Virus record (IMG/VR): IMGVR_UViG_3300022689_000473
Location: 1 to 34,221 of that record
Length of the DNA: 34,221 bases
Source: a virus
Direction: 5' to 3' (one strand)
In this document: in pieces, positions 31,003-34,221 of the stretch
How the letters are laid out: each line of letters opens with the position of its first letter
Position numbering within the stretch: position 1 is the stretch's first letter
Translations under genes and position numbers: made by a program
Notes under the pieces: generated by a model
What the model saw: the letters and a program-made list of their open reading frames with translations, nothing else
Told to the model about the DNA's origin: nothing
Database searches by the model: none

Positions 31003-31195
31003 AGCCCCGCCGCTGGAGCAGTATACGCCCGCCTTTTTAAATGCAGCCGCAGACGAAATCTTTCCGAAATGCGACAACCGACCGTGTTTTAAGCCCGCTT
31101 GCCCGGTGAATGACGCGCATGAAGGCTGCTCAGCCATGCGGACGCTGATCATCGACTATGTCCAGCTGCGCGACAAAATCAAAGCCAGTGAATGA
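30941..31195 (+). CDS. Possible outer-membrane spanin lipoprotein
   Basis: An 84-residue lipoprotein: signal helix MQYLALVVAMCMTGC with lipobox MTGC (Cys15), then APPLEQYTPAFLNAAADEIF and a C-terminal domain with four cysteines (KCDNRPCFKPACPV and HEGC), suggesting disulfides in the periplasm. The start lies within the upstream membrane protein gene in another frame (AGGGA RBS), as with Rz1. It ends in a helix YVQLRDKIKASE. The cysteine-rich part is unusual for spanins; it may have another envelope role. Confidence 0.55.
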   Translation: MQYLALVVAMCMTGCAAVVSEAPPLEQYTPAFLNAAADEIFPKCDNRPCFKPACPVNDAHEGCSAMRTLIIDYVQLRDKIKASE

Positions 31196-31565
31196 CTATG
31201 TCGCGGATCTGGAAACGGAGGTAGAGCGGCTCAGGCAAGAAAACGAACGCCTTAAGAGTTTTATCAAAGGCGATGACATTGTCTTTGCCTGGGCCCTTCA
31301 TTCTAAACTTACGCCAGTGCGGCTAGCGCTGCTCAAGGCGCTTTATAGGCGGGACTATCTCGACCGCCGTACAGCCTTAAACCTGTTTCCCGATTGGACG
31401 GACGCAGGCGCAAACCTCAGAGTGCATATCAATAAAATGCGTGCCACCCTTTGTAAGCATGGCGTATTCATCGAAACGGCGCATAAGCGTGGTTACAGGC
31501 TTACGCCTCATGGCCGCGAAAACCTGTCAAAGCTTATTATACCACGGGCATCGCATACAGAGTGA
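31188..31565 (+). CDS. OmpR-type winged-helix protein with coiled-coil N-terminus
   Basis: A 125-residue protein starting at GTG 31188, overlapping the lipoprotein stop. Residues 4-30 form a leucine-zipper-like helix (DLETEVERLRQENERLKSF); residues about 48-115 match the Trans_reg_C (OmpR/PhoB) winged helix: PVRLALLKALYRRDYLDRR, LRVHINKMRATL and IETAHKRGYRLT. No receiver domain is present, so it probably dimerises through the zipper and binds DNA. It is the last gene of the late operon, an odd place for a regulator. Its stop codon lies in the IS target duplication, but the reading frame is unchanged by the insertion. Confidence 0.75.
   Translation: MNDYVADLETEVERLRQENERLKSFIKGDDIVFAWALHSKLTPVRLALLKALYRRDYLDRRTALNLFPDWTDAGANLRVHINKMRATLCKHGVFIETAHKRGYRLTPHGRENLSKLIIPRASHTE
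31558..31565 (+). repeat. Target-site duplication, left copy
   Basis: CAGAGTGA directly before the left IS end; the same 8 bases follow the right IS end at 33452-33459. It includes the TGA stop of the winged-helix gene. Confidence 0.93.
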
Positions 31566-31578
31566 GGGGTGTATCCCA

Positions 31579-31611
31579 TTGACATACGGTAGCGCATTCC
31601 GTATCTATAAT
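31579..31611 (+). promoter_or_regulatory. Transposase promoter in the left IS end
   Basis: TTGACA (31579-31584, inside the terminal repeat), 17 bp, then TATCTATAAT (31602-31611) and the transposase ATG 3 bases later. An inverted repeat ATACGG/CCGTAT lies in the spacer. The very short leader suggests a nearly leaderless message. Confidence 0.6.
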
Positions 31612-31613
31612 GC

Positions 31614-32349
31614 ATGAAACAGACAAACGTACGCCAGTTCTTCAAACAGTTTCCAGACGACGAAACATGCCTCGTACGTCTATTCAATGTCCGCTTTGGC
31701 CAAGGCCATGAATGCCCCAAGTGTCAGCGCGCTGCGAAATGGTATCGCCTGCAGTCAGAACTGGCTTTCTCTTGCCAATGGTGCGGCCATCACATTCACC
31801 CGATGGTTGGCAGCATCTTTGAGAAAAGCCGTACTCCTTTGCAGCTTTGGTTCTACGCGATTTTCCTTTTCACCACGTCCAAGCATGGTGTTAGCGGGAA
31901 AGAGTTAGAGCGCCAGCTTGGCGTCACATATAAGACTGCATGGCGCATGGCTAAATTGATCCGCGAGCATATGGCTGAAATCGACGGCGAAGCCCCTCTA
32001 GGCGGTGCTGGAAAAGTCGTTGAAGTCGATGAAACCTACATTGGCGGCAAAACCTCTGGCATGGACTGGCGCAGCCGCAAGAGCGTTGTCATGGGCATGA
32101 TGGAGCGCGACGGCGACGTTATGCTTAAGGTTGTTCCAGATCAGCGCCACGCTTGATGGCACGACAACAAACTCAATTGAGAATTTCTTTGGCCACCTCA
32201 AAAGGTCACTGCGGGGCACACACAACAACGTGTCGGCTAAGTATCTACAGACCTACGTCAAAGAGTTTGAGTACCGCTTCAATCGTCGGATGACACCTCA
32301 CGTGATGCTGGATGAGTTGCTTTCCCGCTTCCCTGAGCTGGGCGCTTAA
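31614..32349 (+). pseudogene. IS1595-type (ISXO2-like) transposase, internally deleted
   Basis: The first 178 or so codons are intact: zinc ribbon HECPKCQRAAK with CQWCGHHIHP, an HTH region (SGKELERQLGVTYKTAWRM), and the first catalytic Asp in VEVDETYIGGK. The frame breaks after VVPDQR and stops at 32154-32156. In another frame (about 32150-32349) the C-terminal part resumes: TNSIENFFGHLKRSLRGTHN, then EFEYRFNRR. The segment normally between them (about 45-50 residues, with the second catalytic Asp of the DDE/N triad) is missing. This is therefore an inactive transposase by deletion plus frameshift. Confidence 0.9.
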
Positions 32350-32449
32350 TCACAGCGTCCAACTTGTCCAAATCGCCGTCTGGGTCAGACTCGTGCTCTT
32401 TGATGAATGCCTCAAGGTCTTTTTTCCTAGCATCTTTGAGATTAGTCAT
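32279..32449 (-). CDS. IS passenger gene 3: small charged protein
   Basis: A 56-residue protein starting at ATG 32449 (MTNLKDARKKDLEAFIKEHE), strongly acidic/basic and helical, C-terminus Ser/Pro-rich. The start lies 8 bp inside the preceding gene, so translation is coupled; a longer TTG frame to 32464 is possible. The 3' end is antisense to the end of the transposase remnant. Unrecognised. It might be a small partner or antitoxin-like protein, but nothing in the sequence proves that. Confidence 0.5.
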   Translation of the reverse strand: MTNLKDARKKDLEAFIKEHESDPDGDLDKLDAVIKRPAQGSGKATHPASREVSSDD

Positions 32450-32627
32450 GAGTTGGGCCCTCAAACGACAGAAGATGAATTCTCTTAGGCTTTAGGCTGC
32501 CATCGCTTTCGCGGTTACATTCGATAGCCAAATTTGCCGTGACTTGTTGGTGCTTTGCCAACTCTTCTGGGTTTACCGTAGGGTATAAATCCATAGGCAT
32601 GCGTCTTGGAAACCTGTCATCGTTCAA
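32442..32627 (-). CDS. IS passenger gene 2: small hypothetical protein
   Basis: A 61-residue protein, start TTG 32627 overlapping the TGA of passenger gene 1 (an ATG at codon 10 is an alternative). Sequence includes MPMDLYPTVNPEELAKHQQV and a beta-like end (KPKRIHLLSFEG). No membrane segment. Codon-level overlaps with both neighbours point to one polycistronic unit. Not recognised. Confidence 0.5.
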   Translation of the reverse strand: MNDDRFPRRMPMDLYPTVNPEELAKHQQVTANLAIECNRESDGSLKPKRIHLLSFEGPTHD

Positions 32628-33373
32628 AATGACAGCGCCCCAGCCAGAGCTAGTTTTATCCCGGTCAATCCTCTAATATCAACAGACGCGTTCTCCACAT
32701 TGATTGTAGTGCTGCCATCCACGGCAGCCAAATCCGCATCATTTGGAAATTCAGAAAGCATCGCAGAGCCGATATCAGGGGCGTTGCTAAGCTCTATCTT
32801 TGATTGGCTTTGTTTTTTTGCAGGCCTTAAAAAATCAGCAACCTTCGGTATGAGCTTTTTTCTTTTTGACGGAGGTAGGCTGCGCTCAAGCGCCTTTTCA
32901 ATGACGTCAGTGTCTTGATTTATAACACTGGAAATTTGCTGAATAACGACATTATTGTCACCTGTGATAGACGGTGCAGCACTTGATCTATCACCTTTGG
33001 CGCGCGCCACCCTATCATAGGCATAGCGCGCCACGACATAAGTCACTGCTAAAGCGCCCAGAGTGACGATGCCTTCGTATTCGGCTGGTATGTCCGTACC
33101 TAACATTTCTTCAAGACCACCAACAACTTTCTGTTCGATCTGAGTTTGATATTCGGCATAAATTTCAACAAGCAGGTCCCATGACAAAGACCCTGTTTGC
33201 AAAGAATCGACTTTTACGGTGATTTTGTCGACGGTTAAATCAGAGTCCAGTTGAGCTAAAAAACTCACACCTTCTTCGAGCAAGACTTTCTGCGCAGATA
33301 AGGACGCGATCACCTCATCAATAGTGAAGGCATCCGAAGTGTATTTGCCAGCGTGCTTGAAAGTCGTTTTCAA
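32624..33373 (-). CDS. IS passenger gene 1: hypothetical membrane-anchored protein
   Basis: A 249-residue protein with start TTG 33373 (GAGAGG just before; start uncertain). N-terminal about 95 residues: alpha/beta domain with VDKITVKVDSLQTGSLSWDL; a transmembrane helix about 105-121 (GIVTLGALAVTYVVARYAY); then an ITGDNNVVIQQ motif and a C-terminal soluble region with a basic helix (SKRKKLIPKVADFLRPAKKQ). The 'V.V.SL..GSL..DL' pattern recurs in poorly known bacterial proteins, some linked with accessory islands. No function can be assigned. It opens the passenger operon, reading from the right IS end toward the transposase. Confidence 0.65.
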   Translation of the reverse strand: MKTTFKHAGKYTSDAFTIDEVIASLSAQKVLLEEGVSFLAQLDSDLTVDKITVKVDSLQTGSLSWDLLVEIYAEYQTQIEQKVVGGLEEMLGTDIPAEYEGIVTLGALAVTYVVARYAYDRVARAKGDRSSAAPSITGDNNVVIQQISSVINQDTDVIEKALERSLPPSKRKKLIPKVADFLRPAKKQSQSKIELSNAPDIGSAMLSEFPNDADLAAVDGSTTINVENASVDIRGLTGIKLALAGALSF

Positions 33374-33451
33374 AGACCTCTCCCAGAGCCGAGACCTTTG
33401 AATCTTTGAATGAAAGAGTCAACTTAAACGTATGCAAAGGGGATACACCCC

Positions 33452-33459
33452 CAGAGTGA
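33452..33459 (+). repeat. Target-site duplication, right copy
   Basis: CAGAGTGA directly after the right IS end, identical to 31558-31565. Removing the IS and one copy restores the original phage sequence. Confidence 0.93.
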
Positions 33460-33645: not shown

Positions 33646-34221
33646 TCAAGATAGCGCATCAGCTATTTCCATGACATTGCACGTGTGCAGCACGTCGAAG
33701 CTATAGGCAGCGACCCAGGGGTTGGCGACCCAGCACTTGGCAGGGTCTTTACTGTTGATGCTGTCCCAAAGCTTGGCGAAATCATGCTTAGGCACTTGGT
33801 CAGATGCCAAGTAGCGGCTACCTGTTTCCGCCGCCCAAAAGCATGCGCCCTCGGCAACAGCATCTTTTTCGCTAATATCCTGCAGCCGCTCGACCTTTAC
33901 GGTCGTCACTTTGAGTGCAATCCGCGACATCCACCGGGGCATAAACATGGAAGACCTGTAGCGGCTATCCCACTTGCTCAAAGGCCGGTCAGCGACGTAT
34001 TGCAAATTGCTGCCTTGCGGGATGTCGCGCGGAGGCAGGTGATCAAACTCTGCGTGCGCCCGATAGGCCTCTTTCACCCACAGCAGATCGCCAACGGCGT
34101 ATTTGGGCTTTTGCCCTATACGCCTAGTCTGCGTCTTTTGCCCTGCCAGCAGCGCGCGGACCATAGGCGCGCGGAACAGCATAGGAAAGGCACGCAAAGC
34201 CGTGGCTGCTTGCTGGGTCAC
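33646..34221 (-). CDS. ASCH-like phage protein, reaching window edge
   Basis: 191 residues visible. It contains PMLFRAPMVRALLAGQKTQT with the following RR, VGDLLWVKEAYRAHAEFDHL, MFMPRWMSRIALKVTTVKVE, 'RLQDISEKDAVAEGA' and FAKLWDSINSKDPA plus NPWVAAYSFDVL. This is the pattern of phage ASCH-related proteins, thought to bind RNA or modified nucleotides; function not established. The GTG at the window edge begins the visible frame and agrees with typical lengths, but an upstream start cannot be excluded. The last 15 residues (after SFDVL) differ from usual endings. Confidence 0.8.
   Translation of the reverse strand: MTQQAATALRAFPMLFRAPMVRALLAGQKTQTRRIGQKPKYAVGDLLWVKEAYRAHAEFDHLPPRDIPQGSNLQYVADRPLSKWDSRYRSSMFMPRWMSRIALKVTTVKVERLQDISEKDAVAEGACFWAAETGSRYLASDQVPKHDFAKLWDSINSKDPAKCWVANPWVAAYSFDVLHTCNVMEIADALS

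Follow-up and report, generated by a model that had tools for sequence, protein, structure and literature searches.

IS1595 elements that carry passenger genes form an established class of mobile element, as stated in PMC3004938 with reference to Siguier et al. 2009, and the features of the IS1595 family are described in PMC8101967. We analysed an element of this family located in a 34,221-nucleotide stretch of viral DNA (hereafter, the window), which is a temperate-phage contig. On the basis of its inverted repeats, its 8-bp duplication and a layout matching that of sister elements, the whole transposon occupies 1,886 bp at positions 31566..33451. The transposase-side terminal inverted repeat lies at 31566..31588 on the plus strand. 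The cargo-side repeat, which also forms the outer border of the cargo slot, lies at 33429..33451 on the minus strand. The two repeats are 23 nt long and 87% complementary, and both ends begin with GGGGTGTATCCC, that is, with GG. The 8-bp target-site duplication CAGAGTGA is perfect at both flanks (left copy, 31558..31565; right copy, 33452..33459). Because the duplications flank it on the outside, the whole unit, including its cargo, has transposed. A phage gene at 31158-31565 has its stop codon within the left copy; insertion occurred directly 3′ of this codon and left the gene undamaged. No relative of the flanking phage genes showing an empty insertion site was found. As for these neighbours, the product of gene 31158-31565 has a coiled coil at its N terminus, and its C-terminal part weakly matches a winged-helix domain (Trans_reg_C). 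On the right-hand side, gene 33646-34221 encodes a phrog_874 protein (6e-50, function unknown) with a weak, below cut-off match to the ASCH domain.

The plus-strand gene encodes an IS1595-family transposase (Zn_ribbon_IS1595, DDE_Tnp_IS1595, NF033547), with Pfam and NCBIfam matches in both of the fragments into which it is split. An intact 292-aa Sulfitobacter transposase was used as a reference. Residues 1-177, corresponding to the zinc ribbon and the start of the DDE domain, are encoded at 31614..32144 and are 88% identical to this reference. Residues 229-292 are encoded at 32155..32349, also on the plus strand, with 86% identity and in a different frame. Residues 178-228, kept in the sister copies, have been deleted (about 150 bp). 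The deleted stretch contains a TDE motif, retained in the intact copies, that probably supplies one of the catalytic acidic residues. Overall, the zinc ribbon, the IS1595 DDE domain, the GG-starting repeats and the 8-bp duplication are all found in the window, and the complete DDE catalytic set is missing from this copy; an intact sister transposase scores 205 bits. Since its transposase lacks residues 178-228 and has its two parts in different frames, the window copy is unable to move itself. The original prediction had described a passenger gene within an insertion sequence whose transposase had decayed, and the deletion and the frame break bear this out. Among the sisters, the transposase of L017/L023 is intact except for an inserted glycine run GGGGGGGGG, probably a low-complexity expansion.

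Nine complete elements, the window's own and eight sisters, were compared together with partial ones. They came from Rhodobacterales and from one other alphaproteobacterial genome. Each of the nine is complete at both ends and flanked by a perfect 8-bp duplication, with a length of 1,670-2,264 bp. Their layout is the same throughout: cargo-side repeat, cargo, a small gene (ORF3), the transposase on the opposite strand and the transposase-side repeat. In blastn comparisons, the elements are similar over the first 24-28 bp (up to about 60 bp in the three elements that have a leader in common). Similarity is then absent until about the ORF3 start codon, from which it is continuous to the far end. 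L018 and L024, the sole pair sharing a cargo, are the exception to this gap. The clearest case of a change is L020 compared with L021. Identity in this pair is 88% downstream of ORF3 and 42% over the first 36 nt of that gene; the two cargos are unrelated. Judging from the aligned sequences, one cargo has been replaced by another here, the inner junction lying within the first 12 codons of ORF3. It is the one clear pair on which replacement rests, and the other differences could be old divergence. One genome, G107, harbours two elements with different cargos. In eight of ten cases, the stop codon of the cargo overlaps the start of ORF3, by 4-41 nt.

The slot contents were varied. We observed a 196-aa membrane/coiled-coil protein in L007, a 129-aa protein together with a polytopic 167-aa membrane protein in L011 (=L019), a membrane protein followed by an M78 peptidase in L012 (=L020), and different membrane proteins in L013 (=L021) and L014 (=L022). 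L010 (=L018) and L015 (=L024) share a protein with a weak LAPAL match (3.2e-9, below cut-off). A DUF7946-DUF7947 protein occupies the slot of L030 (PF25678, 1.9e-23; PF25679, 6.6e-20), and a polytopic membrane protein that of L066, a degenerate copy. The cargo of L017 (=L023) matches the PADLOC model PDC-S42 (9.5e-16), LAPAL_fam (NF053583, 4.2e-38) and phrog_3243 (9.4e-20). The PADLOC name PDC stands for phage-defence candidate (PMC11514479), and NCBIfam labels this PDC-S42-like family a putative phage structural protein. A literature search returned no paper on DUF7946 or PDC-S42. The peptidase of L012/L020 is of the CapP / ImmA-IrrE type (PF06114, 3.7e-21; capP, 1e-32). Taken together, the cargos examined lean towards small proteins that are membrane-associated, phage-linked or defence candidates, and they include neither metabolic nor drug-resistance genes.

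Three further observations were made in these loci. In L012/L020, the product of the first cargo gene has 127 aa and a single TM segment and weakly resembles Rz-type spanins (phrog_1026, 1.3e-5); with the CapP/ImmA-like M78 peptidase that follows, it possibly forms a functional pair. At about 2273-5811 of L030, the element, with GGGGTCTATCCCC repeats, appears to interrupt a leucine-rich-repeat gene that can be read on either side. The degenerate copy L066 (1-1300, genome G055) has an ORF3-like frame and a transposase remnant (residues 225-284).

The cargo of the window belongs to phrog_4506, a temperate-phage accessory gene family. In L004, a Celeribacter MAG, the homologue is part of a Mu-like prophage, with head genes around it (Portal_Mu, Phage_Mu_F, virion morphogenesis). 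In L029 its neighbour is an Arc-like regulator, and the surrounding prophage region contains genes for an integrase and a capsid protein. In Pseudomonas phages it is found downstream of the CI repressor (L034 included) or between antiterminator Q and terminase. A scan of viral contigs yielded sixteen places for the family, some on contigs already found. Among 397 genomes of one family, two carry it, neither copy within an insertion sequence, and ORF3 is adjacent in none of the IS-free cases examined. Single-sequence searches of phages, plasmids and viral contigs gave no close relative of the window cargo. Two neighbouring genes were recorded in passing. One, in L004 (2587-4053), encodes a Mu F-like head protein with a C-terminal PBECR2 nuclease-like domain (1.2e-27). 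The other, on the Pseudomonas phage contig L034 (8896-10164), lies near the cargo homologue, a few genes away, and encodes a 422-aa protein with many near-identical ASNTGYQSA/ASNTGDYSA repeats.

By analogy with these contexts, the likeliest function of the cargo would be to protect lysogens, by superinfection exclusion or by a membrane-based phage defence. We put it forward tentatively; the defence or exclusion function suggested in the original prediction is plausible. This role is suggested by the positions of the family in temperate phages (CI; Q-terminase) and by the other cargos. A defence reading of the cargos is likewise favored by the PDC match and the CapP-like peptidase in sister slots, by the phage accessory-gene context and by membrane association. 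It is weakened by two observations: the PADLOC search matched neither the proteins of the window nor the L004 homologue to any known defence model, and NCBI gives the PDC-S42-like family its structural label.

This label, the diversity of the cargo families, most of which have no defence-model match, and the broken state of the window's own cargo also suit another account. In this account the transposon is the same and the cargos are neutral hitch-hikers, picked up randomly beside the repeat and sharing no function. The observed skew in cargo content goes against this account, as do purifying selection on the cargo family and the overlap of the majority of cargos with ORF3. We regard neutral hitch-hiking as a serious contender that nonetheless falls somewhat short of probable. 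The reading that we prefer, which is likely to be correct, is that the window holds an IS1595-family transposon that has been inactivated and whose one cargo slot is exchangeable.

Within this slot, the original prediction had placed a three-gene operon. Its minus-strand ORFs are all present (ORF1, 32624-33373, 249 aa; ORF2, 32442-32627, 61 aa; ORF3, 32279-32464, 61 aa), and so are the TTG/TGA junction and the 8-bp overlap that it described. ORF1 and ORF2 are, however, one gene in two frames, and ORF3 is part of the transposon backbone. ORF1 starts with TTG, preceded by a GGGAGAGG ribosome-binding site. Most of it (32669..33373, minus strand) is the 5′ part of the cargo gene, with 161 of 231 residues identical to L004 and a match to phrog_4506 positions 6-195. 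The 3′ part, made of ORF2 and same-frame codons upstream of it (32442..32666, minus strand), encodes the C-terminal beta domain and matches phrog_4506 positions 231-294. In a codon alignment, the ORF2 frame read downwards from 32684 is identical to L004 residues 237-305 at 53 of 69 residues (77%). The frame changes at 32667..32669 (minus strand), inside the conserved C-terminal motif of the cargo family, DIRxLDRDKxxSGW. As called, ORF1 therefore has its last 14 residues out of frame, and the TTG "start" of ORF2 is internal to the cargo gene, downstream of the break. Intact homologues in two rhodobacterial prophages, L004 and L029, are single ORFs with 68-77% identity. That of L004 is one open frame of about 307 codons and matches phrog_4506 with 8e-25 over positions 17-294 of 300. 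Because the phrog_4506 family (300 positions, function unknown) matches ORF1 and then the ORF2 frame collinearly, and because the homologues are single ORFs, ORF1 and ORF2 are the halves of one gene of about 310 aa. Thus, two of the three supposed undescribed genes are pieces of a single phage gene. A programmed frameshift was also considered and rejected, since the break has no standard slippery heptamer and all relatives are single-ORF.

The break might instead be an assembly or sequencing error, the cargo gene being intact in the real genome. The record is a metagenome-type virus, and the 77% identity still seen downstream implies that the break is either recent or unreal. The rest of the element nevertheless points to decay, with the ~150-bp deletion and the transposase frame break, and no long homopolymer is found at the break. 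An error at this site is in our view unlikely. Comparison of the ORF1 part of the cargo with the Celeribacter homologue gave a dN of 0.23 for a saturated dS of 2.75, which supports purifying selection on the cargo in the past. Intact passengers beside a decayed transposase had been taken as a sign of selection for their function. This argument does not hold here, because the large passenger gene itself carries a frameshift near 32668.

Some features of the cargo protein were confirmed. The GDNN motif is real and sits within the conserved P-x-I-x-x-x-N-x-V block of the family, and no named Pfam or NCBIfam family is matched. The single transmembrane segment is marginal, with a mean Kyte-Doolittle value of 1.34 around residues 101-119. 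An AlphaFold2 model built with 13 sequences (mean pLDDT 64, pTM 0.48) predicts a strand, a long helix, two strands, helices including the weakly hydrophobic segment, three helices and a C-terminal beta domain. This last domain (residues ~221-307), which the frameshift cuts, is predicted more confidently (pLDDT ~80). Fold searches of the model gave no significant PDB match; the C-terminal domain gave only weak matches, to single-stranded-DNA-binding OB folds, and a search from a poor model retrieved one uncharacterised phage protein (E 1.2e-4). Four cargo types resemble each other in layout: around residue 60 they have a GS[L/F]-like motif, at ~80-120 a hydrophobic helix, and after it a C-terminal domain. 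They may be of remote common descent. This is only a lead, because the profile comparisons, including those of the window cargo with the PDC-S42-like and LAPAL-like cargos, are below significance.

ORF3 belongs to the transposon backbone and not to the cargo. Comparison with relatives indicates that its true start is the ATG at 32449 rather than the TTG at 32464, giving a 56-aa gene at 32279..32449 (minus strand), with an 8-nt overlap between its start and the stop of the cargo gene. The protein begins with MTNLKDARKKDLEAFIKEHESDPDGDLDKLDAVIKRP. A 77% identical copy is located on a Sulfitobacter plasmid, within an intact IS1595 element. With the intact transposase as query, eight copies were found in seven of 397 genomes. 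In the same genomes, seven of the eight matches to the ORF3 profile coincided with a transposase, the eighth lying beside a transposase remnant. One further match was obtained among 385 genomes of the class, and every good match to ORF3 was located at an IS1595 copy or the remnant of one. Single-sequence searches of phages and viral contigs gave no close relative of ORF3.

A functional three-gene defence, exclusion or toxin operon, retained by selection after the death of the transposase, might be read from three adjacent overlapping minus-strand ORFs, a broken transposase and past purifying selection on the cargo; it is very improbable, given that ORF1 and ORF2 are fragments of a single gene and that co-occurrence elsewhere, the lack of which would refute the original prediction on its own terms, was not observed for the cargo and ORF3, the cargo being found without ORF3 in prophages and ORF3 without a phrog_4506 cargo in sister elements. 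A toxin-antitoxin module formed by the cargo and ORF3 was rejected as well, there being no fixed pair: the two genes do not co-occur. That ORF3 is no protein gene, its frame being open only because of antisense constraint from the transposase, can be practically dismissed: its last 71 nt (32279..32349) are indeed antisense to the 3′ end of the transposase, an overlap kept in sister elements, but over its first 30 codons, which lie outside this overlap, dN is well below dS in all pairs for which dS is computable, and the protein can be aligned across nine elements with 24 invariant positions.

A transposon with an exchangeable cargo slot probably operates as follows. The backbone consists of the transposase-side repeat, the transposase and the convergent 56-aa ORF3, overlapping the transposase 3′ end. 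The slot is bounded by the ORF3 start codon and the 24-bp cargo-side repeat and takes a single cargo unit, made up of one gene or two. As the flanks of the nine elements show, the transposase mobilises all of this and creates the 8-bp target duplications. Transcription of the cargo runs towards ORF3, with the cargo usually ending within the ORF3 start region. Since the end of the cargo overlaps the start of ORF3, translation of ORF3 is probably coupled to that of the cargo. Cargos could be swapped by homologous recombination anchored in the repeat/leader and in the 5′ end of ORF3. The inner junction would fall in the first ~12 codons of ORF3, as in the one sister pair, and the outer one in or near the repeat. 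Through the convergent overlap, cargo-ORF3 transcription may affect the transposase, and ORF3 itself may act in transposition or its control. In the window copy, a phrog_4506 cargo once under purifying selection is now frameshifted, and the transposase is broken too.

A bolder proposal, which we consider rather doubtful at present, is that the minimal IS1595 lineage (about 1.7-2.3 kb) is a single-slot carrier of phage-defence/exclusion genes, in which cargo is added by recombination next to a fixed docking/coupling site formed by the ORF3 protein together with the 5′ end of its coding sequence. If this is true, surveying the slot across genomes would offer a route to undescribed anti-phage genes. 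Should slot contents differ in nearly every copy, these elements would be simple natural cassette carriers, and the slot would list small genes, membrane-associated or defence candidates, that defence-island searches would miss.

The locus can finally be compared with known systems. The CapP / ImmA-IrrE (M78) peptidases are unrelated to the window cargo, and the L012/L020 element that carries one contains neither a CapH partner nor CBASS genes. DUF7946-DUF7947 aligns in order with the window's cargo family over 181 columns, but the hhalign score is not significant (E 0.19, probability 0.3%). PDC-S42/LAPAL proteins have the GS[L/F] motif, the hydrophobic helix and the C-terminal domain in a layout similar to that of the window cargo, though profile similarity is not significant. 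Within phrog_4506, a family of phage proteins, the window cargo is a member that differs in being frameshifted and transposon-borne, and in not being part of the phage genome itself. A changing cargo slot with a conserved companion gene in IS1595 elements was undescribed in the literature searched, which did not extend to ISfinder or Siguier et al. 2009. The window element resembles the IS1595 family in its transposase domains, GG-starting repeats, 8-bp duplications and passenger genes, and its lineage is set apart by a conserved companion gene of 56 aa and by a cargo slot with sharp borders and changing contents.
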